Part shown: positions 2,321 through 46,711 of the stretch, one piece after another | How the letters are laid out: each line of letters opens with the position of its first letter | Position numbering within the stretch: the first letter of the stretch is position 1 | Assembly (NCBI RefSeq): GCF_004335005.1 | Contig: NZ_RQRT01000006.1 | Location: 1-64,000, forward strand | Reading direction: 5' to 3' | DNA from: Paracoccus nototheniae | Lineage (GTDB): Bacteria > Pseudomonadota > Alphaproteobacteria > Rhodobacterales > Rhodobacteraceae | Length of the DNA: 64,000 nt | Made by a program: the position numbers and the translations under genes | Notes under the pieces: generated by a model | The model's input: the letters and a program-made list of their open reading frames with translations, nothing else | What the model was told of the DNA's origin: nothing | The model's database searches: none

Positions 2321-4186
2321 ATGCTGCATATCGATGACATCTCGTATTCCATTCAGGGCCGCCCGCTGTTTACCGGCGCCTCGGCTTCTGTCCCCGAAGG
2401 CCACAAGGTGGGCCTTGTCGGTCCCAATGGCGCTGGCAAGACCACGCTGTTCAAGCTGATCCGCGGAGAGCTGGGTCTGGACGGCGGCGCCATCAGCCTG
2501 CCGACCCGCGCCCGCATCGGCGGCGTGGCGCAGGAATCGGCGGCCACCGACCGGTCGGTTCTGGACACGGTGCTGGACGCCGATCTGGAACGCACCGCGC
2601 TGATGGCCGAGGCCGAGACGGCGACCGACGCCCATCGCATCGCCGACATCCAGACCCGCCTGACCGATATCGACGCCTGGTCCGCCGAGGCGCGGGCCGC
2701 GACGATCCTGAACGGTCTGGGGTTCGACACCAACGACCAGCAGCGCCCGACCAGCGATTTCAGCGGTGGCTGGCGGATGCGGGTGGCGCTGGCCGGGGTG
2801 CTGTTCGCGCAGCCCGACCTGCTGCTGCTGGACGAACCGACCAACTATCTGGACCTGGAAGGCGCGCTGTGGCTGGAGACCTATCTGGCCCGCTATCCCC
2901 ATACCGTCATCATCATCAGCCATGACCGCGGCCTGTTGAACCGCGCCGTCGGCCACATCCTGCATGTCGAGGATCGCAAGCTGACACTGTATACCGGCGG
3001 CTATGACAGCTTTACCCGCATCCGCGCCGAAAAACGCGCGCTGCAGGCGGCCGAGGCCAAGAAGCAGACCGAACGGCGCGCGCATCTGCAAAGTTTCGTG
3101 GACCGTTTCGGTGCCAAGGCCAGCAAGGCCCGTCAGGCGCAGGCCCGCGTCAAGATGCTGGCCAAGATGGAGCCGATCACCGCCCCGGAAGAGGCCAAGT
3201 TCTTCCGCTTCAGTTTTCCCCAGCCCGAGGAACTGTCGCCCCCCATCGTCGCGATGGAGGGCGTCTCGGTCGGCTATGGCGACCGTGCGGTGCTGTCGCG
3301 CCTTGGTTTGCGCATCGATCAGGACGACCGGATCGCGCTGCTGGGTCGCAACGGGCAGGGCAAATCGACGTTGTCCAAGCTGCTGGCCGACCGGCTGGCG
3401 CCGATGGCGGGCAAGGTGGTGGTGTCGAACAAGCTGCGCGTCGGCTATTTCGCCCAGCATCAGGTGGACGAGCTGTCGCTGGACGAGACGCCGCTGGATC
3501 ACATCCGCGCCGTGCGCCCGAACGAGATGCAGGCCCGCCAGCGCGCCCGTCTGGCCGGTTTCGGTCTGATGGAGGCGCAGGTCGAGACCAAGGTCCGCGC
3601 CCTGTCGGGGGGCCAAAAGGCCCGGCTGTCGCTGCTGCTGGCCACCATCGACGCGCCGCATCTGCTGATTCTGGACGAACCGACCAACCACCTTGATATC
3701 GAATCCCGCGAGGCTCTGTCCGAGGCGCTGAACGATTACACCGGCGCCGTGGTGCTGGTCAGCCACGACATGCACCTGCTGGGGCTGGTCGCGGACCGGC
3801 TGTGGCTGGTCAAGGACGGCGCCGTGGCGCCCTATGAGGGCGATCTGGACGATTACCGCCGGTTCCTGCTGTCGGGCGACGTGCCCGCCGAGAAATCCGG
3901 CGAGAAGACGCCCGAGACGCCGAAGCCTGCCCCGCCCAAGCGCCCGAACCGCGATGCGGTGCTGGCGATGCGGTCCGATGTCCGCAAGGCCGAGGAGCGG
4001 GTCCAGAAACTGACCGAGATGATGGGCAAGCTGGACAAGAAGCTGGCCGATCCGGGTCTGTACAACGATCCCTACGAGGCCGAGAAATGGGGCAAGAAGC
4101 GGGCCGAGGCCGTGCGTGCGCTGGCTTTCGCCGAAGAGTTGTGGATGGGTGCGCTGGAAAAGCTTGACGCAGCCGAGAAAGCCTGA
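2321..4186 (+). CDS. ABC-F family ATPase (YheS/Uup-like)
   Basis: A 621-residue soluble protein with two ABC cassettes and no membrane domain. Cassette 1 has Walker A GPNGAGKTT (residues 34-42) and LLLDEPTNYLD. Cassette 2 has GRNGQGKST, LSGGQKARLS and LILDEPTNHLD. The linker is charged, and the C-terminal tail (about 530-621) is predicted coiled coil, as in YheS/Uup. ABC-F proteins act on the ribosome during translation or resolve stalled states. I chose the ATG at 2321, which starts directly with the MLHIDDIS segment; an in-frame ATG at 2303 would add six residues. No strong Shine-Dalgarno is visible. The exact subfamily is uncertain. Confidence 0.9.
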   Translation: MLHIDDISYSIQGRPLFTGASASVPEGHKVGLVGPNGAGKTTLFKLIRGELGLDGGAISLPTRARIGGVAQESAATDRSVLDTVLDADLERTALMAEAETATDAHRIADIQTRLTDIDAWSAEARAATILNGLGFDTNDQQRPTSDFSGGWRMRVALAGVLFAQPDLLLLDEPTNYLDLEGALWLETYLARYPHTVIIISHDRGLLNRAVGHILHVEDRKLTLYTGGYDSFTRIRAEKRALQAAEAKKQTERRAHLQSFVDRFGAKASKARQAQARVKMLAKMEPITAPEEAKFFRFSFPQPEELSPPIVAMEGVSVGYGDRAVLSRLGLRIDQDDRIALLGRNGQGKSTLSKLLADRLAPMAGKVVVSNKLRVGYFAQHQVDELSLDETPLDHIRAVRPNEMQARQRARLAGFGLMEAQVETKVRALSGGQKARLSLLLATIDAPHLLILDEPTNHLDIESREALSEALNDYTGAVVLVSHDMHLLGLVADRLWLVKDGAVAPYEGDLDDYRRFLLSGDVPAEKSGEKTPETPKPAPPKRPNRDAVLAMRSDVRKAEERVQKLTEMMGKLDKKLADPGLYNDPYEAEKWGKKRAEAVRALAFAEELWMGALEKLDAAEKA

Positions 4187-4301
4187 CCCCATCGGGCTGT
4201 GGCGAAAATGCCAAGGCCATCGCGATGCTGCCTTGCGCCGGTTGTGCGCCGTGATGGGCGGGATTAGATGGCCTCAACGCCCTTTGGACCGGAACGACCC
4301 G

Positions 4302-5042
4302 ATGAAATATGCCCTGGCCTTCGCCCTTCTTTTCGCCACGCCGGTTGCCGCGCAGGACTTCGGCCTGACGGGGGACCGGGTGTTCTCGTTCGATCTGGGG
4401 CTGGGTGCCAAGGTCGGCCCGGCCTATCCCGGCGGCGAAGAGGCCGAGGTCGCGCCCTGGCTGATCTTTCGCGATGCCGGTTTCGGCCCGGTCGGGCAGG
4501 CGCCTGCGCAGGGGTTCTCGCTGGCCCCGTCCTTCAATACGGTGGGCAAGCGCGACAGCAGCGACGAGGCGGCGCTGACCGGCCTGAACGACATCGACCG
4601 CGCCTATGAGCTAGGCCTGCGCGCCAGCTATGCCACCGGCCCCATCACCGCCTATGGCAGCCTGCGCCGCGGTTTCGACGGCCACGAAGGGCTGACCGGC
4701 GAGATCGGGGCGAAATACCGCACCGAGCTGTCGGATCGCGTGACCCTGTGGTCGGGCGCCGAGGTCGGTTACGGCAATGACGATTTCAACGACACCTATT
4801 TCGGCGTGACCCCCACCGAAAGCGTGACCAGCGGCCTGCCCGCCAGCGCGCCCGGCGGCGGCTTCAACGAAGCCGCGATCACGTTCGAGGCGCGCTATGC
4901 CCTGAACGACACCACCGCCCTGCTGGGGCAGGTGCGCTATGGCAAGCTGATCGGCGACGCCGCCGATTCGCCGGTCGTGCAGGATGAATACCAGCCCTCG
5001 CTGCGCCTCGGCGTGACGCGCCGGTTCTCGTTCGGGTTCTGA
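4302..5042 (+). CDS. MipA/OmpV family outer membrane protein
   Basis: A 246-residue protein with a short signal peptide (MKYALAFALLFATPVAAQ, cleavage after AxA). The mature part is of beta-barrel type: LGLGAKVGPAYPGGEE near the N-terminus, alternating strands, and a C-terminal segment ending in SLRLGVTRRFSFGF with the terminal Phe typical of BAM substrates. This matches the MipA/OmpV family of outer membrane scaffold or adhesion proteins. I chose the ATG at 4302 because it begins the signal peptide and has GGAACG a few bases upstream; a longer in-frame start exists. It lies 115 bases after the ABC-F gene on the same strand. Its function here is unknown. Confidence 0.85.
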   Translation: MKYALAFALLFATPVAAQDFGLTGDRVFSFDLGLGAKVGPAYPGGEEAEVAPWLIFRDAGFGPVGQAPAQGFSLAPSFNTVGKRDSSDEAALTGLNDIDRAYELGLRASYATGPITAYGSLRRGFDGHEGLTGEIGAKYRTELSDRVTLWSGAEVGYGNDDFNDTYFGVTPTESVTSGLPASAPGGGFNEAAITFEARYALNDTTALLGQVRYGKLIGDAADSPVVQDEYQPSLRLGVTRRFSFGF

Positions 5043-5059
5043 TCCGCGACGGCTGTCTG

Positions 5060-5101
5060 CTGCCGCCGAATGGACGGGATGGCCCGGCCCTTCGGTGGCA
5101 G
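5060..5101 (+). terminator. Possible hairpin after the MipA-like gene
   Basis: CTGCCGCCGAA (5060-5070) pairs with TTCGGTGGCAG (5091-5101) with one G-T pair and a 20-base loop, 18 bases after the stop codon. There is no T-tract, so it is at best a weak or Rho-assisted terminator. A second small hairpin (AGCGTC/GACGCT) lies at 5144-5161. Confidence 0.35.
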
Positions 5102-5189
5102 CGATGCCTCTGCCCACCTGCATTCGTTCCAGACCCGGCTTGCAGCGTCTTTACCGACGCTCTGGTACACCCTAGGGTTGTGACGTGAT

Positions 5190-5227
5190 CCCGGCTGGCC
5201 GGGAGGGTTTTCTCAGCTCCAGCCGGG
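5190..5227 (+). other. Inverted repeat in the leader of the small secreted protein gene
   Basis: CCCGGCTGG at 5190-5198 and CCAGCCGGG at 5219-5227 form a perfect 9-bp stem around a 20-base loop. It ends 13 bases before the ATG at 5241. The stem could act in the mRNA leader or as a DNA operator. No homology is known to me. Confidence 0.4.
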
Positions 5228-5240
5228 GATAGGGCGCCTA

Positions 5241-5600
5241 ATGCGGCAATCTGCCCGGTCTTTGGTGCTTTTGCTGGCGATGGCGCCCTTGCTGCTGGCT
5301 GGCGCGTGGGCCGGTGGTGGGACAGCGCGGGTCGTTTGCACCATGGCCGACGGCACCGACCCCGCCCCGGGCCAGGCCCTGTGCGACGCGCTGCGCAATC
5401 AGCATGACGGCCCGCCTCTGCGCCTGCATGTTCTGACGACCGGGCCTGCGGCGCTTGGCGCGCGGCTGGACCTTTTGACGGATCAGGGGCCGCGCCTTGG
5501 CCCGGCCTTGGAATTTTCGGTCATGGATCGCGCCCTGACCCCCGATGATTTTCAACTTTTTGCCCGCGACCTGCTGAGGTTCGGGCTGCTTCAGCCATAA
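5241..5600 (+). CDS. Small secreted protein of unknown function
   Basis: A 119-residue protein with a clear signal peptide (hydrophobic LVLLLAMAPLLLAGAWA). The mature part is about 95 residues, has two cysteines about 15 residues apart (RVVC and QALC) that could form a disulfide, and ends in a helical stretch. I do not recognise a family. It ends 10 bases before the M10 protease start, so the two genes are probably co-transcribed. Serralysin operons elsewhere carry a small periplasmic inhibitor, but the sequence shows no recognisable inhibitor motif, so this remains a context-based guess. Confidence 0.7.
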   Translation: MRQSARSLVLLLAMAPLLLAGAWAGGGTARVVCTMADGTDPAPGQALCDALRNQHDGPPLRLHVLTTGPAALGARLDLLTDQGPRLGPALEFSVMDRALTPDDFQLFARDLLRFGLLQP

Positions 5601-5610
5601 GGACCGGCCC

Positions 5611-7815
5611 ATGTGCCAGATCTGTGCCGCCCTGCGCCCGATGGAAAAAACCTGCGCGCTCAGCGAATTCACCGGCACCGCGGTCGACCGGCTGGCCGCG
5701 ACCCTGCGCGAGGCGGGCGATGCCCCCGACAACACCCGCACCCCGTATCGCATGGGTCCGGACGACGTGTTCAGGGGCATCATCGCCTCGGGTTCCGACG
5801 AGGATTGGGTCGGCATCCGGCTGGAGGCTGGCACGACCTATCAGATCGCGGTGACCGGCGATGCCCTGTCCGATCCGATGCTGGCGCTGTATGACGGATC
5901 AGGACGTCTGCTGGCGGCGAATGATGACATCAATGCCAGTCTGGACAGCGGCCTGACCTTCAGGGCGCAGGTGACCGGCACCTATTTTCTGGGTGCCTCG
6001 GGCTATGGCGGACAGACCGGCAGCTATCACATGACCGCGCAGGAACTTGCGCCCGCCCGGCCCGCCTCGACGCTGGAACTGGCCCGCTATCTGCACGAGG
6101 GGTTCTGGCGCGACAACTGGCAAGAGGCGCGGGCTTTCGATCTGTCGGGCGACCGCGAGATCACCGTGAACCTGACCCAGTTGGACCCCGACGGGCGCGC
6201 GCTGGCCCGCGATGCGCTGGCCGCATGGTCCGCCGTCGCCGATATCCGGTTTCGCGAAACGAACCAGACCGCCGACATCCAGTTCGACGACGAGAATTCG
6301 GGCGCCTATGCCCAGTCCACGACACAAGACGGCCGGATCCTGTCCTCGGCGATCAATATCGACCGCGGATGGCTGTCCGATTACGGCGCGGCGATCGGCA
6401 CCTATGGGTTTCAGACCTATCTGCACGAGGTCGGCCACGCCATCGGTCTGGGCCATCAGGGCAATTACAACGGCAGCGGTTCCTTTGCGATGGACGCGCG
6501 GTTTGCCAATGACAGCTGGCAGGCCTCGGTCATGTCCTATTTCGGGCAGGACGAAAATCCCAATGTCACCGCCTCGCAAGCCTTCGTGGCGACCTTGATG
6601 CCTGCCGATATCATGGCGATCCAGATGCTGTACGGCGCCCCGGGCGCCGGATCGCTAAGCGCCGGGAGCACCACTTATGGGGTCGGCCACACGCTTGGCG
6701 ACAGCTGGCTGGGGCGGGTCTTCACCGCGCAGGGCAGTGTCGGGGTCGCGGGCGTCAGGGATGCGCGGTCGGTTGCGATGACCATCCATGACCGGGACGG
6801 GTTCGATGTCCTGGACTTTCGCAACGACGCGCAAAGCCAGCGGGTCGACCTGCGACCGGGGGGCGTGTCGGACATCTATGGGCTGACCGGCAACCTGCAG
6901 ATCACGCAAGGAACCCAGATCGAGGGGTTTGTCGCCGGGGCAGGCAATGATGTCGTCACGGGGAATGGCGTCGGCAACCTGCTGCGGGGCGGGGCTGGCC
7001 GTGACGTTCTGACCGGGATGACGGGCAATGACAGCCTGCATGGCGAACGGGGCCATGACACCCTGTGGGGCGGTGCGGGGCACGACTGGCTGTTTGGCGG
7101 TGACGGCGACGATCAGCTGTCGGACATGATCGGCAACAACCTGCTGTCGGGCGGGGCCGGGCAGGACCGTCTGATCGCAGGCGCGGGCCGCGATACGCTG
7201 CAGGGCGATGCGGGCCATGACTTGCTGGATGGCGGGGCCGGGGACGACCTGATCTTTGGCGGCATCGGTGCGGATACGATCCTTGCCGGGCCGGGCAATG
7301 ACACTGCCCATGGGGGCTGGGGCCATGACGTCATGAATGGTGGCTTTGGCTGGGACAGGCTCATCGGGGGGCTGGGCAATGATGCGCTGGATGGCGCCTT
7401 GGGCAATGACACGCTGGAGGGCAACGAGGGCAACGACCTGCTGCGTGGCGGGGCGGGCGCGGATCTTCTGTCGGGCCATCAGGGGAATGACACGCTGGTG
7501 GGCGGCATGGGATCGGACACGATGGCGGGGGGGATCGGCGCCGACGTCTTTCGCTTTTTCAGTGTCGCCGACAGTGCGCGTGGCGCCGGCGATCTGATCA
7601 TCGATTTTGACCCCTTGGCCGACCGGCTGGATCTGCAGGCCATGGACCTGCGCTTTGGGGGCCGGGGCGCGCCGTCCGGTCCCGGATCGATCAGCTGGGA
7701 TCATGTGGGTGGGCAGACCCATGTCACTGTCGATCTGGATGGCGACCGGCAGGCCGATATGGTCATCCGGCTGGCCGGTACCCTGATGCTGGAGGCCGAC
7801 ACCTTCGTGCTGTGA
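5611..7815 (+). CDS. Serralysin-like M10 metalloprotease with RTX repeats
   Basis: A 734-residue secreted protease. There is no classical signal peptide; the start MCQICAALRP is typical of Rhodobacteraceae M10 proteins. A pre-peptidase beta domain spans roughly residues 45-140. The catalytic domain carries HEVGHAIGLGH (zinc ligands H272, H276 and H282, catalytic E273) and the Met-turn SVMSYFG (M308). About 20 glycine/aspartate nonapeptide repeats (GGAGxD type) occupy residues 444-643 and should bind calcium. A C-terminal secretion region follows, indicating type I secretion. The start has AAGGA upstream. No type I secretion genes are in the window. The substrate is unknown. Confidence 0.92.
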   Translation: MCQICAALRPMEKTCALSEFTGTAVDRLAATLREAGDAPDNTRTPYRMGPDDVFRGIIASGSDEDWVGIRLEAGTTYQIAVTGDALSDPMLALYDGSGRLLAANDDINASLDSGLTFRAQVTGTYFLGASGYGGQTGSYHMTAQELAPARPASTLELARYLHEGFWRDNWQEARAFDLSGDREITVNLTQLDPDGRALARDALAAWSAVADIRFRETNQTADIQFDDENSGAYAQSTTQDGRILSSAINIDRGWLSDYGAAIGTYGFQTYLHEVGHAIGLGHQGNYNGSGSFAMDARFANDSWQASVMSYFGQDENPNVTASQAFVATLMPADIMAIQMLYGAPGAGSLSAGSTTYGVGHTLGDSWLGRVFTAQGSVGVAGVRDARSVAMTIHDRDGFDVLDFRNDAQSQRVDLRPGGVSDIYGLTGNLQITQGTQIEGFVAGAGNDVVTGNGVGNLLRGGAGRDVLTGMTGNDSLHGERGHDTLWGGAGHDWLFGGDGDDQLSDMIGNNLLSGGAGQDRLIAGAGRDTLQGDAGHDLLDGGAGDDLIFGGIGADTILAGPGNDTAHGGWGHDVMNGGFGWDRLIGGLGNDALDGALGNDTLEGNEGNDLLRGGAGADLLSGHQGNDTLVGGMGSDTMAGGIGADVFRFFSVADSARGAGDLIIDFDPLADRLDLQAMDLRFGGRGAPSGPGSISWDHVGGQTHVTVDLDGDRQADMVIRLAGTLMLEADTFVL

Positions 7816-37369: not shown

Positions 37370-38380
37370 TCAGGCGTCGTCCTGCGGCAGCTTCAGGATC
37401 AGCTGGTTGGTTTCCTCCAACCGGCGGATGGCGGCGACCACCTCGGTCATGGAATCCTCGATATCCTTGGGGCGGGGATTTCCCAAAGCCTCGCGCGCCT
37501 CGCGCAGCGTTTCGGCCATGCGTTGTGACAGGTTCGACAGGATGAAATCGGCAGCCGCCGAATCGGCCTCTTGCGGGGCGGCAAGGGCGCGCACCAGGGT
37601 CGCCTGGTCCACCTCGCGCGTCAGGCGGGGCACGTCGCGCGGTTCAAGACGGGTGGGGATATGGGCAAAGATGAAGATTGCCTTGCGCACTCCGGCGGCA
37701 AATTCCGCGTCGCGTTCGTCCAGCATGCCCAGCACATCGTCGCGCAGATCGGCGGTGGCAAAGTTCAGGATCGCCCCCATCCGGTCGGCGGCGGGAATGG
37801 CGATCGCCGGTTTCGGCTGCGTCTCTGCCGCCTGCAGCAGCACCAGCCCCACGCGTTTCAGCGCCGGAGGCGTCACGCCCGAGGTCATCGACATCGCCTG
37901 CGCCACCACCCGCGCCCGGTCGCGGGGCAGGGCCACGAACACCGCCGAGGCCGCCTCGACCGGCAGCTTGGACATCATTAGCGCGACCAGTTCCACCGAT
38001 TCCGAATTGGCCAGCTTGATCAGCGCGTCATGGGGCAGGATGCACAGCCGCGGCCAGGGGTCGGCCTGACCGGTGATCGCGGCGCGCTGGCGCAGCCGGT
38101 CCGAGCTGACATCGGACAACCGCTTGCCCAGCAAGGCCAGCGTGCCGTCCAGATTTCCCGGAAAGGTGACGCCCACCGATTCCAGACGGTCGCAGAATTC
38201 GGTGATCACCGCGTCGCGGGTCTGCAGGTCGATCACCTCCATCCCGACCATTTCCTGCGCCAGCAGGGTCTGGCTGTCGCTGTCCAGCTGGTCCAGCCCG
38301 CCCATTTCCTTGTCATCCAGCAAGACGCGGACGATCACCGCCGCCTTTTGCCTTTGGCTCAGTCCGATCTGGCCGGTCAT
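37370..38380 (-). CDS. fliG: FliG-like flagellar motor switch protein (isolated)
   Basis: A 336-residue protein with the FliG domain order: N-terminal domain (RQKAAVIVRVLLDDKE), middle ARM domain, and C-terminal torque region LTREVDQATLVRAL, SNLSQRMAETLREAREAL. FliG-C charged positions are only partly kept (Arg in SQRMAE kept; the usual LRDD is LREA). No other flagellar gene is in the window. The ATG at 38380 has GGGGGCAAG upstream. In flagella it is the rotor ring that contacts MotA; here its role is open. Confidence 0.82.
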   Translation of the reverse strand: MTGQIGLSQRQKAAVIVRVLLDDKEMGGLDQLDSDSQTLLAQEMVGMEVIDLQTRDAVITEFCDRLESVGVTFPGNLDGTLALLGKRLSDVSSDRLRQRAAITGQADPWPRLCILPHDALIKLANSESVELVALMMSKLPVEAASAVFVALPRDRARVVAQAMSMTSGVTPPALKRVGLVLLQAAETQPKPAIAIPAADRMGAILNFATADLRDDVLGMLDERDAEFAAGVRKAIFIFAHIPTRLEPRDVPRLTREVDQATLVRALAAPQEADSAAADFILSNLSQRMAETLREAREALGNPRPKDIEDSMTEVVAAIRRLEETNQLILKLPQDDA

Positions 38381-38455
38381 AGCTTGCCCCCGTCGCATGC
38401 GTTCAGGGGGCATCTTGCCATGGCAAATCCTAAGATCGGATTGACGCGCGCGCCC

Positions 38456-42029: not shown

Positions 42030-43715
42030 TTACCGTTCAGTCAGCTTCAGTTCGATCCGGCGGTTCAGGGCGCGGCCGTCGGACGTGTCCTCGGGCGCGA
42101 TGGGGCGGGTATCGGCAAAGCCGGTAGGCGCCAGCCGGTTGTCCGGAAAGCCCAGATCGTCGATCAGATAGCGCACGACGGCCAGCGCGCGGCCTTGGCT
42201 CAGTTCCCAGTTGTCGGCATAGCGCCCTGCGCCCGACAAGGGCAGCCCGTCGGTATGGCCGTCCACGCGGATGATCCAGTCGATCTCGGGCGGGATCTCG
42301 TCCGAGATGTCAGTGAGCAGCTGCGCCAGCGATGCGATCTGGGTTCGCCCGGCATCGGACAGGGTCGCCTCGCCCTGCGCGAACAGCACTTCGGACTGAA
42401 ACACAAAGCGGTCGCCCACCACCTGCACGCCCTCGCGCCCCGACAGGATCTGCGACAGCCTTCCGAAGAATTCCGACCGATAGCGGGTCAGATCCTGTGC
42501 CTCGGCCTCGGCGCGCAGCCGGGCCTCTTCCTCCAGCGCAAGGCGGGCGCGGGTTTCCTCGGCGGTCCGGACCAGCGCGGCGTTCAGTTGCTGACCAAGG
42601 TCCGAGACGCGCAGTTCGGCATCCTGCTGTTCCTCGCCCGCCGCATCCAGCAGGGCCTGCAGCGATCCCAGCTGCGCGCGCAGCTGCGCCACCTGTTCGT
42701 TCAGCAGCGCGACCCGGCGCTGCCCGTCATCGGCCAGACCGTCCTGTTCGGCCAGTTGAGCCTGCGCGGCGGCCAGCAGCGCGGCATTGCGTTCGGCCTC
42801 GGTCAGTTGGGTGTCCGCCTCGGCCACGGCCTGATCGCGGGCGGCATTGGCGGCGGCCAGCAGGGTCAGGGTTTCCTCGGCCTCGCGGCGGCGTTCTTCC
42901 AGCGCCAGGGTCATGGCGGTCAGTTCGGCGTCCGCGCTTTGCAGGCGCTCGCGCAGCAGGCGGGCGGCCTCGGCTTCGGCCAGACGGGTTTCCTCGGCCT
43001 CGGTCAGGCGGGCGGTGGTTGAGTCGAGGCGGCTTTGGGCCTGCGCCAGCGCGGTGTCCTGCTGATCGACGCGGGCGCGCAGATCGGCGGCCAGCGCCTC
43101 CAGTGCGTCGCGGCGGGCGGCAGCCAGACGCGCGGCCTCGGCCACCGCGTCGGTTTCCGCGCGGGCCGAGGCGATGGCCAGTTCGGCCGCCGATGCGCGG
43201 GTTTCGGCCTGATCCAGCCGGGTTTCCAGTGCCGCGACTTGTGACTGCCCCTGCGCACGCTCGGCCAGCAGGGCCGCGACCTCGGCCTCGAAATCGGTCA
43301 GGCGGGTGCGGGCGGCGTCCAGTTCGGTCTCGCCCTGCGCCAGCTGGCTGGTCAGGCGGGCGATGCGGGCAGCGCGGTCGCGGGCCTCGGCCTCGGCCCG
43401 GGCGGCGCGTTCGGCCTCGGTCTCAAGATCGCGGGCCAGTGCGGTTTCGCGGGTCTCCGAGGCGTCCAGTGCCTGACCCAGGGCCGCCACCTGACGGCCC
43501 AGCCCCTCCAGCTGCTGCTGCTGGCGCGAGATGATCTGATCCTGCCCGGTGATCGTGCCGTCCTGCGTGGTGATCTGTTCGCGCAGCACCGATTGCACGA
43601 CGGTAAAGATCGTCAGCACGAACATCAGCACCATCAGCAGGGCCGTCATCGCATCGACGAAGCCCGGCCAGATGGTCGATGAAAAACGCTGCTGGGACGA
43701 CCGGGACAGGCGCAT
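42030..43715 (-). CDS. MotB-like protein: membrane anchor, long coiled coil, OmpA domain
   Basis: A 561-residue protein. One N-terminal helix (WPGFVDAMTALLMVLMFVLT) carries D21 at the position of the ion-binding Asp of MotB. A very long Ala/Glu/Arg/Gln-rich coiled coil spans about residues 50-415. The C-terminal OmpA/MotB peptidoglycan-binding domain (about 425-561) has DGHTDGLPLSG and FADTRPIAPEDTSDGRALNR. It follows the MotA-like gene after 5 bases. The layout is that of a stator B subunit whose periplasmic arm is extended by the coiled coil. It resembles ZorB of Zorya, but no ZorC/D/E is near. The function is unknown. Confidence 0.85.
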   Translation of the reverse strand: MRLSRSSQQRFSSTIWPGFVDAMTALLMVLMFVLTIFTVVQSVLREQITTQDGTITGQDQIISRQQQQLEGLGRQVAALGQALDASETRETALARDLETEAERAARAEAEARDRAARIARLTSQLAQGETELDAARTRLTDFEAEVAALLAERAQGQSQVAALETRLDQAETRASAAELAIASARAETDAVAEAARLAAARRDALEALAADLRARVDQQDTALAQAQSRLDSTTARLTEAEETRLAEAEAARLLRERLQSADAELTAMTLALEERRREAEETLTLLAAANAARDQAVAEADTQLTEAERNAALLAAAQAQLAEQDGLADDGQRRVALLNEQVAQLRAQLGSLQALLDAAGEEQQDAELRVSDLGQQLNAALVRTAEETRARLALEEEARLRAEAEAQDLTRYRSEFFGRLSQILSGREGVQVVGDRFVFQSEVLFAQGEATLSDAGRTQIASLAQLLTDISDEIPPEIDWIIRVDGHTDGLPLSGAGRYADNWELSQGRALAVVRYLIDDLGFPDNRLAPTGFADTRPIAPEDTSDGRALNRRIELKLTER

Positions 43716-43720
43716 CTGCC

Positions 43721-45013
43721 TTACGCCCCGTGACGCGGATCGGCGACCGGATCGCCAAACCGCGCCGCCCGCACCGCGCGGGTCAGCACCAGAATGTCAG
43801 AGCGCAGTTCAGCATGCATCTGGTCGCGCCCCTCGGTCAGATCGGCCGACAGGCGCTGCAACGCCGTCTCCAGCCGCGACAGATCGGGCGGCGGGGCAGG
43901 GGCCACGGGGGCAGTATGGGCCTGCCCGTCGGCCAGACGGTTCAGGGCGCGGGTCAGTTGATCGGACTGGCCGCTGGCGGCGTCGCGTTCGGCCTGCGCC
44001 TCGTTGACCAGCGCGTCGATGGCCTGCGCCATGACGACCACGCGTTCGTCGGCCATCAACGCGGCCTCGTCGCGCATGGCATCGCGTTCGATGTGATAGG
44101 CCTGCAGGCGTTCCATCTGTCCGGCCATCTGTTCCAGAAACCCCGCCAGCGCCGCCTGATCGACCCCGTCCCCCTCGCCCGAGGCGATGCTGAGCCGGGT
44201 AAAGCCCGACATCCACTCCTCCAACTCGCGATAGAAACGGTTCTGACCATGGGTCACGAACAGCTCCAGCAGGCCCACGACCAGCGACCCCGCCAGCCCC
44301 AGCAGCGATGATGAGAACGCCGTGGCCATGCCGCCCAGCTGCGATTCCAGCCCGGTCATCAGCTTGTCAAAGACATCCAGTCCCGTCTCGCCATCCTGCG
44401 GGGCCAGCGCGCGGATTGTGTCGACGACCGCCGGAATGGTCGTGGCCAACCCATAGAACGTGCCCAGAAGGCCCAGAAAGATCAACAGGTTCGCCAGATA
44501 GCGGGTGACATCGCGCGCCTCGTCGATGCGGGCCGCCACCGAATCAAGGATCGAGCTGGCCGAGCTGGCGCTGATCGCCCCCCCGGCAGGCCCGCGCGAT
44601 CCCAGAAGCGCCGCCAGAGGCGCCAGCAGGCGCGGGGCCGCGTCATCCGAACCGGGGGTCTTGTCGGCTTTGCTGCGCCGGGCGGCAAAACGCTCGATCC
44701 AGCTGACCGAACCGGTCAGCTGCGCCACCTGCCAGAAACAGGCCAGCACACCCAGGGCAAAGACGCCCAGAATCAGCCCGTTCAGCCAGCGGTTCGCGTC
44801 AAAGATCGACAGGATGCGGCCATAGGCGAACCAGCCGCCCGCCAGCACCAGCCCCAGCACCGTCAGCATCAAAAGGATCTGCCGCACCGGCTGAGAGAAA
44901 CGCGGCGGGCTGCCCGCCCCGGTCAGCGCCTGATCGCGGGTGGCCGAGATGCGCCGGTTGGTCAGTGTCTGCCGCGAGGGTCGCTGCGGGTCGCCATTGG
45001 TCGGATCGCTCAC
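43721..45013 (-). CDS. MotA/ExbB/TolQ-like proton channel protein
   Basis: A 430-residue inner membrane protein. Two N-terminal helices (ILLMLTVLGLVLAGGWFAYG, LNGLILGVFALGVLACFW) lie near residues 43-105. The MotA/ExbB-like pair follows: LLIFLGLLGTFYGLATTIPA, with the pore Thr, and MATAFSSSLLGLAGSLVVGL. A helical cytoplasmic tail of about 170 residues is at the C-terminus. I chose the GTG at 45013 with GGGGAT upstream. Co-transcribed with the MotB-like gene downstream and probably with chaC upstream (81 bases). Four helices plus tail recall ZorA; ExbB-type biopolymer transport is the usual database label. Confidence 0.85.
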   Translation of the reverse strand: MSDPTNGDPQRPSRQTLTNRRISATRDQALTGAGSPPRFSQPVRQILLMLTVLGLVLAGGWFAYGRILSIFDANRWLNGLILGVFALGVLACFWQVAQLTGSVSWIERFAARRSKADKTPGSDDAAPRLLAPLAALLGSRGPAGGAISASSASSILDSVAARIDEARDVTRYLANLLIFLGLLGTFYGLATTIPAVVDTIRALAPQDGETGLDVFDKLMTGLESQLGGMATAFSSSLLGLAGSLVVGLLELFVTHGQNRFYRELEEWMSGFTRLSIASGEGDGVDQAALAGFLEQMAGQMERLQAYHIERDAMRDEAALMADERVVVMAQAIDALVNEAQAERDAASGQSDQLTRALNRLADGQAHTAPVAPAPPPDLSRLETALQRLSADLTEGRDQMHAELRSDILVLTRAVRAARFGDPVADPRHGA

Positions 45014-45094
45014 CGGTAAATCCCCGTCCCGTCGATGCTTTTGCCCGACTGTAGGGCGGCCCGCCCCGGTTGCCAAGCATTCCGGGTGCGGCGC

Positions 45095-45640
45095 TCAGCC
45101 CGGCGGCGGCAGCAGCGCCCTGACAGCCTGCGACAGGGCATCCAGATGATCGTCGGCCATGCCGATCTGCGCCAGATGAGCGGCGGTGTTGAACAGATAA
45201 TCGGCATTCGGCCCGCGCCCGCCATGGGCGCGGGCGATGATGCGGGCCTGTTCATCGGCGGGCAACCCGCCCGCATATTGCCAGTGATCGCGCCGCATCA
45301 CATAGGCCAGCGCCTGCACCCGGCGCCCGTCATCCAGCGCCAGCGGCAGGATCGCCTCGCGATAGGCATCGGTCACCAGTTCGCGTGCGCGCAGATCGGC
45401 CAGCACGCGGTCATGATCGGCGGGTGCGATGCGCAGGGCCAGCCCCTGACACAGGGCGCCGTCCTGCGGGTCCAGCCCCAGCACCAGCCCGGGCAGCGCC
45501 TCGGTCCCGCGATGCTGGATCGATTTCAGGCAAAAGCTGCGGGCATAGCCCGACAGCCGCGCGGGCACCGTCTCGGCCGGGGAAAACCCCGGATCCCAGA
45601 TCAGCGAACCATAGCCGAAGACCCAATCGATGCGTTCCAT
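45095..45640 (-). CDS. ChaC-like gamma-glutamylcyclotransferase
   Basis: A 181-residue cytoplasmic protein. DWVFGYGSLIWDPGF at the N-terminus is the substrate-binding loop of the gamma-glutamylcyclotransferase fold. SGYARSFCLKSIQHRGTEA and ALAYVMRRDHWQYAGGL are ChaC signatures. ChaC enzymes degrade glutathione to 5-oxoproline and Cys-Gly. The ATG at 45640 was chosen for the conserved N-terminus. It is divergent from the DUF2125 gene, 63 bases away. Confidence 0.9.
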   Translation of the reverse strand: MERIDWVFGYGSLIWDPGFSPAETVPARLSGYARSFCLKSIQHRGTEALPGLVLGLDPQDGALCQGLALRIAPADHDRVLADLRARELVTDAYREAILPLALDDGRRVQALAYVMRRDHWQYAGGLPADEQARIIARAHGGRGPNADYLFNTAAHLAQIGMADDHLDALSQAVRALLPPPG

Positions 45641-45703
45641 TGTCCGTTCCGTCGCCTGTCCGGACAGGCTATGACATGCGCGACGCGGACAAAAGGGCCA
45701 GCC

Positions 45704-46711
45704 ATGCGCAGAACGGTGATCGGAACGGGGCTTGTGCTGGCGCTGCTGGCAGGGGGCTGGCTGGGCGCGGAAAGCATGGCCAGCCGGCAGGTGGCGGCGC
45801 TGTTCGACGCTGACCCGGCCCTGCAGGCGGCGGCTGTCCGGCCGCTGCGCGATCCGCGCGCCCTGGGCATCACCGTAACCGAGCCGCAATTCCGCGACCC
45901 GGCGATCAGCCTCAGCCTGCCCTGGGCGCGGCTGTCGCTGTCGCCGCTGTCGCCCCTGACCGCCCGGCTGGACCTGCCCGAACAGGGTCAGCTGAGCGCC
46001 GGGGGCCAGATCATGGATCTGGGGCTGAGCGACCCGCAGGCCAGCCTGTCGCTGGCGCCGCTGAGCAATATGGCCCCCGACCGGCTGGATCTGTCGCTTG
46101 GCGCCATGACGCTGGACGGCGCGCCGCTGGCCGGTGGATTGACGGTGCAGGGGCGGCTGGTCGATCTGGCCCCCGACGCCCCCGCCACCGCCCGCGCCGC
46201 CTATGATCTGACGCTGTCGCTGCGTGATCTCAGCACGGATGGTCTGGTGCGGCTTGGCCTTGATCCCGGCCCGATGCCGGGGCCTGTCAGTGCCAGCGGG
46301 CCGCTGCGGATCTGGCTGGATGACGCGCCCTCGGTCACCGGCGGGGCCGCGCCGCGCCTGACCGGCTGGCAGACCGAGGGTCTGTCGCTGCAGGCAGGCG
46401 ATATCGGCCTGCGCCTTGTGGGCCGCTTGTCGCGCGACGATCAGGGCCGCGCCGAGGGGCAGCTGGCGCTTTATTCCACTGACGCGGATGCGATGATCGC
46501 GATGGCGGCGGGGCTGGGGCTGATCCCGGGACAGGCACAGATGCTGCTGCGCGCGGGGCTGTCGCAGCTGTCGCGGGCGCCGATGGATCAGGGCCTGCCC
46601 GGCCCGGTCTTTCCCGACCCTGCGGAGGGCGAATTGCGCCTGCCCATCACCATGCGCGACGGCCAGCTCAGCCTTGGCGGCGTCAGCATCGGCGCAGCGC
46701 CGCTGCTTTAA
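45704..46711 (+). CDS. DUF2125 domain-containing envelope protein
   Basis: A 335-residue protein with an N-terminal signal or anchor (TVIGTGLVLALLAGGWLGAE) and a periplasmic beta-rich body with many LxLxL strands (for example SLSLPWARLSLSPLSPLTAR and LSLAPLSNMAPDRLDLSLGA). This pattern fits DUF2125, a family of long beta proteins in alphaproteobacteria with unknown role, possibly lipid-handling like AsmA-type folds. AAAAGGG precedes the ATG at 45704. It converges with tyrA. Confidence 0.85.
   Translation: MRRTVIGTGLVLALLAGGWLGAESMASRQVAALFDADPALQAAAVRPLRDPRALGITVTEPQFRDPAISLSLPWARLSLSPLSPLTARLDLPEQGQLSAGGQIMDLGLSDPQASLSLAPLSNMAPDRLDLSLGAMTLDGAPLAGGLTVQGRLVDLAPDAPATARAAYDLTLSLRDLSTDGLVRLGLDPGPMPGPVSASGPLRIWLDDAPSVTGGAAPRLTGWQTEGLSLQAGDIGLRLVGRLSRDDQGRAEGQLALYSTDADAMIAMAAGLGLIPGQAQMLLRAGLSQLSRAPMDQGLPGPVFPDPAEGELRLPITMRDGQLSLGGVSIGAAPLL

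Follow-up and report, generated by a model that had tools for sequence, protein, structure and literature searches.

Rotary motors of the 5:2 type serve the flagellum, Tol, Ton, gliding and type 9 secretion, and Zorya, and a pair of motor-like genes in Paracoccus nototheniae, here called A and B, raises the question of what such a pair might do elsewhere. Both genes lie on the reverse strand of the window—i.e., the whole 64,000-nucleotide stretch analyzed (contig NZ_RQRT01000006.1, positions 1 to 64,000). The A subunit gene (43721..45013, minus strand) begins with a GTG start codon at 45013, MSDPTN being the N-terminus of relatives, and its stop codon ends at 43721; the product is a MotA/TolQ/ExbB/ZorA-like protein of 430 aa with four transmembrane (TM) helices. 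After a gap of 5 nt (43716..43720, minus strand), the B subunit gene (42030..43715, minus strand) encodes 561 aa, with one TM helix that carries Asp21 in the motif WPGFVD, a coiled coil at residues 46-406, and an OmpA-like domain at residues 444-552. The coordinates, the gap, the coil and OmpA domain of B, and the Asp in its single helix all agree with a preliminary description of this locus, while the 170 residues that it gave to the tail of A and the roughly 370 that it gave to the coil are adjusted to 163 and 361, respectively.

The AlphaFold model of A, a single chain predicted from an input of 49 sequences (mean pLDDT 81.6), has the four-helix MotA/ExbB-like fold with a long tail that had been proposed. 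The cytoplasmic C-terminal tail of 163 residues is mostly helical in this model (residues 284-364 and 378-419). The best structural matches were TolQ (Z 12.3), ExbB (11.5), ZorA (10.4), and MotA (9.6), spanning about 190-200 residues, and the top 19 rows were all 5:2 motor subunits, with the caveat that a Z near 10-12 for helical bundles can be weak evidence alone and reachable by chance. Among the pore helices, LGLLGTFYGLATT carries T185 and AFSSSLLGLAGSL carries S235/S236. The LGLLGTF pore motif was identical in 159/159 A proteins, and the Asp of B was present in 158/159 B proteins, the sole exception being a broken ORF.

We also searched A with family models. Window A had no match to Pfam PF01618 (MotA_ExbB) at E ≤ 0.1, since its sequence is too divergent; the same model was weakly matched by 32 of 49 A relatives (best 9.7e-5), and a genome search with it did not return the A-B locus among its matches. 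Likewise, no match to NCBIfam TolQ/ExbB models was obtained at E ≤ 1, A fell outside the NCBIfam MotA families and Pfam MotA_N, and hhalign gave no useful match between the A profile and single TolQ and MotA sequences. For B, Pfam placed an OmpA domain (PF00691, E 1.4e-15) at residues 444-552, and the scan at E ≤ 0.1 returned OmpA, SlyX, and Tropomyosin only, the MotB plug model being absent; the best solved sequence match of the OmpA domain was PomB. B belongs to the NCBIfam family NF006542 (PRK09039), with 653.7 bits (E 4e-196) against a curated cut-off of 388, and B proteins of other orders pass the cut-offs of NF006543-NF006545. The PRK09039 models (NF006542-NF006546) are named "peptidoglycan-binding protein", and the description gives no function, partner, or mechanism; an NCBIfam search with A found no model for the A partner of PRK09039. 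Literature searches for PRK09039, and others for Tn-seq or operon reports, found nothing on function, and the literature found assigns no mechanism to the pair. The label "uncharacterised" given earlier needs qualification, as B sits in a named NCBIfam family and a probable orthologue in Komagataeibacter has been overexpressed (PMC6570709).

Could the pair be an antiphage system of the Zorya kind, with wall-bound B sensing damage and the A tail recruiting an effector encoded elsewhere? ZorA1, the nearest of the defense-library models, was weakly matched by 49/49 A proteins (best 1.5e-16), and ZorB3 was matched by B (7.6e-23); sequence profiles place A near ZorA, and Zorya shares with the pair the long tail of A and the OmpA-type B. 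However, A scored 18.7 bits against the curated NCBI ZorA model, where the cut-off is 500, and the ten neighboring genes had no match among the defense models of PADLOC, in line with the earlier remark that ZorC/D/E genes are missing nearby. The pair is, moreover, almost always present in single copy, class-wide, and in a mostly fixed housekeeping gene order, unlike defense islands. A Zorya identity for A-B was rejected on gene context and scores, and we regard this reading as very improbable. What does stand is the kinship to 5:2 motors that the preliminary description had claimed, given the TolQ/ExbB/ZorA/MotA folds, the weak ZorA1 matches, and the conserved pore motif and Asp.

Conservation of the pair had at first been considered for Rhodobacterales only, but it reaches much further. 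The A profile found A in 197 of the 289 sampled alphaproteobacterial genomes, with a copy number of almost always one, and strong matches outside Alphaproteobacteria were rare. One Paracoccus genome (G412) had no A, and A is therefore not universally required. In the 80 loci that were fetched from this class sample, with gene starts set mechanically, B followed directly after A on the same strand in 80/80. When the presence of A was compared with that of fliF (FliF), both were present in 124 genomes, A alone in 73, fliF alone in 51, and neither in 41, with no association (P = 0.25); the A-B pair is independent of the flagellum. Single copy, class-wide spread, and the lack of association with fliF speak for a housekeeping role under vertical inheritance and against one in motility or defense. 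The flagellar MotA of the genome is another protein (TIGR03818, 349 bits with a cut-off of 304) and shares contig C159 with FlhA, FlhB, and FliF; together with a TolQ on contig C55, this makes A-B an additional motor.

The window does hold one flagellar homologue, contrary to the initial statement that there were no flagellar genes here. A FliG homologue (37370-38413, minus strand), the only fliG of the genome, has FliG_N, FliG_M, and FliG_C above cut-off and is divergent, scoring 113 bits against the TIGR00207 cut-off of 226.7. It lies between purB and a GAPDH gene, far from the flagellar cluster on C159, and the same arrangement is seen in many Paracoccus. With this fliG 3.6 kb from the pair, A-B might be an auxiliary flagellar stator that works with it, yet 73 of the 197 A carriers have no FliF, the flagellar cluster holds a bona fide MotA, B has no MotB plug, and A has no MotA_N. 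The gene also adjoins purB in Paracoccus relatives, and many other relatives have no fliG at their A-B locus. Both the co-occurrence with FliF and the comparison of loci speak against a flagellar link through the nearby fliG, which was rejected, and a stator role appears extremely unlikely.

We then turned to the genes that accompany the pair. Across the 80 loci, the usual run is efp-suhB-C-A-B, with gene C upstream of A in 60/80, suhB in 68/80, and efp in 62/80; the product of C is a secreted protein that is rich in proline and carries an OmpA-like domain at its C-terminus. "Stand-alone", as the pair had been called, is thus correct for the Paracoccus locus but not for most other alphaproteobacteria. 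C and A co-occur (P = 2e-6, or P = 2e-11 at a strict cut-off), but 33 genomes have C without A, and eight such C loci that were inspected contained no hidden A or B. Conversely, no C orthologue was found in Paracoccus or in the other Rhodobacterales sampled. These two observations weaken C as an obligate third subunit; since C persists without A, it is not a dedicated partner and is probably a helper rather than a defining part. In one genome without A-B (L221, G097:C24:17000-27000), C (5951-7291) adjoins a gene for a 604-aa ABC-transporter-like protein (4132-5946) of a kind that elsewhere stands downstream of B, and the locus looks as if A-B had been lost. Two further loci (L228, 2807-6547; L150, 2589-5966) have open frames of 1246 and 1125 aa, respectively, counted from candidate starts, that end in a C-type OmpA domain.

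In the window, the gene upstream of A on the same strand encodes a ChaC-like gamma-glutamylcyclotransferase (45095..45889, minus strand); almost every Rhodobacterales locus that was fetched has this gene immediately before A, and its conservation as a neighbor is confined to Rhodobacterales. Upstream of A there is also a sigma-70-like promoter match, TTGGCA-17-TACAGT (45048..45076, minus strand), which is a consensus match only, with 1 found and 0.2 expected.

The coil of B was compared across the family. In window B, its 361 residues (46-406) are proline-free, with a hydrophobic period of 3.5, and correspond to about 54 nm. Across 153 B proteins, the coil had a median length of 312 residues, the shortest being 130 and the longest 790; fully helical coils of these two lengths would measure about 19 and 117 nm. 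The 48,960 coil residues contain 3 prolines, and the hydrophobic period is again 3.5. Against this roughly six-fold variation of the coil, the C-terminal part of B is near constant, mostly 148-150 residues. Taken modulo 7, the spacing between the TM motif and the OmpA domain was 4 in 93/153 proteins and 1 in 39/153. The effect of relatedness was reduced by forming disjoint nearest-neighbor pairs, used in place of a tree-based correction. Coil length differed within 47 of these independent pairs: in 30 the difference was an exact multiple of 7 (P about 1e-14), and in 12 more it was 3 or 4 modulo 7, as a coiled-coil stutter would give. When A tail lengths were analyzed with the same pairing as a control, 3/33 were exact multiples of 7. 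Changes in length are tolerated while register is mostly kept, which fits one continuous coiled coil.

This heptad-step variation is a new result and points to a coiled coil, predicted from sequence to be in register, whose length usually exceeds the depth of the periplasm. Since that depth is roughly 20-25 nm, a rod of this kind cannot usually stand straight between membrane and wall. The phrase "anchored far into the cell wall", used in the preliminary description, therefore needs revision, as a coil of 54 nm here and 19-117 nm in the family cannot simply stand upright.

An antiparallel hairpin was rejected because odd multiples of 7 were no rarer than even ones (19 vs 11), unlike what a matched hairpin would give; the argument is indirect. 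The AlphaFold model of B has long helices at 61-237 and 248-424 with pLDDT <50 at 236-247 and, being a single chain, is undiagnostic for a hairpin. Matching between A-tail and B-coil lengths was also considered and rejected: there was none in other orders and a negative relation in Rhodobacterales, with 22 concordant and 16 discordant pairs. In the P. denitrificans/versutus group (L066, 7254-9560; L056; L060), the A frame reads 640-770 aa from stop to stop, and the A tail is expanded while B is short (474 aa). At another locus (L063, 10556-11038), 84-bp tandem repeats, i.e., 28 residues or four heptads, occur within a B protein of roughly 945 aa; such repeats are a likely source of rod lengthening.

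A six-fold variation in coil length next to a constant C-terminal part is also what a loose tether would show, and no driven partner is known. A-B might then hold the membrane to the wall as a passive tether or gauge rather than a motor, with ion flow lost or regulatory. However, nothing in A or B is more conserved than the pore motif and the Asp, both of which would be needless for a tether, and we judge this reading improbable.

The explanation that we favor is that A and B probably constitute a rotary motor of the 5:2 type, powered by ions (most likely protons), that sits in the inner membrane and works for the envelope and not for the flagellum. By analogy with solved 5:2 motors (PMC11890865, PMC12505986), five A subunits would ring two B transmembrane helices. 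Protons would pass between Asp21 of B and T185 and S235/S236 of A, and A would thereby turn relative to B. Beyond the membrane, the two B chains would run on as a continuous, parallel coiled coil, with their OmpA domains holding peptidoglycan, and the coil could link motor and wall in the manner of a long tether or drive rod; as it exceeds the depth of the periplasm, it has to run at a slant or along the wall. In the cytoplasm, the A tails would probably form a bundle like that of ZorA, and the secreted OmpA-like C probably helps at the wall in most alphaproteobacteria, with Paracoccus working without it. The most likely job of such a motor would be mechanical work on, or upkeep of, peptidoglycan and envelope during growth and division.

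A bolder version, rather unlikely in our view, is that B forms an uninterrupted parallel coil of up to about 117 nm along the wall, which the A ring would turn or wind as a winch, or which would serve as a long-range tension gauge. If this were true, a rotary motor would be working on peptidoglycan tens of nanometers away. The natural rod lengths, heptad-quantized and nearly all in register, would offer a handle on length and twist versus wall attachment in a rotary motor.

How does the favored envelope motor compare with known systems? The MotA and MotB of Komagataeibacter hansenii, 348 and 321 aa, are encoded by adjacent genes in a nonflagellate host; GFP fusions localized to the poles, and overexpression led to elongated, chained cells and faster colony spreading (PMC6570709, PMC6315621). 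These were the sole functional data that the literature yielded, and they come from overexpression only. Judged by size, order, and topology in the published description rather than by sequence, they are probably orthologues of A-B. Like A-B, they combine a four-TM protein with a one-TM protein that has a C-terminal OmpA-like domain, with sizes at the short end of the family, and their B is much shorter than that of the window.

TolQ and ExbB resemble A most closely, as its best structural matches. To our knowledge, TolR and ExbD have neither an OmpA domain nor a long coil. The resemblance allows a different reading, in which A-B is a Tol/Ton-like energizer: B, or B with a partner, would transmit force to the outer membrane, the rod being a pulling or twisting shaft that reaches beyond the peptidoglycan and not a fixed anchor. 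Given its length, the coil could traverse the periplasm more than once, and the polar location and the chaining on overexpression recall Tol-Pal (PMC6570709). Nevertheless, B ends in an OmpA domain of the peptidoglycan type, Pfam found no TolA/TonB-like gene adjacent to the pair, and the genome already has a TolQ, so that we consider this reading possible but unlikely.

With MotAB and PomAB, the pair shares a four-TM A and a B with an Asp and an OmpA domain; in contrast to them, A has no MotA_N domain and falls short of the MotA family models, B has no plug, and the pair is present without flagella. Generic ion transporters (GIT) are nonflagellar MotAB relatives, some of which have very large periplasmic domains, and their B subunits have no OmpA homology (PMC12505986), whereas window B has a clear OmpA domain. 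With ZorAB of Zorya, the pair has in common a 5:2-type core with the B Asp, an OmpA-type B, and a long cytoplasmic A tail. The peptidoglycan domains of ZorB, however, sit directly atop the TM helices (PMC11890865), while in B a coil of 130-790 residues lies between, and, unlike Zorya, A-B has no nearby effector genes. Set beside these systems, A-B is predicted to be a further 5:2-type motor, carried by most alphaproteobacteria.
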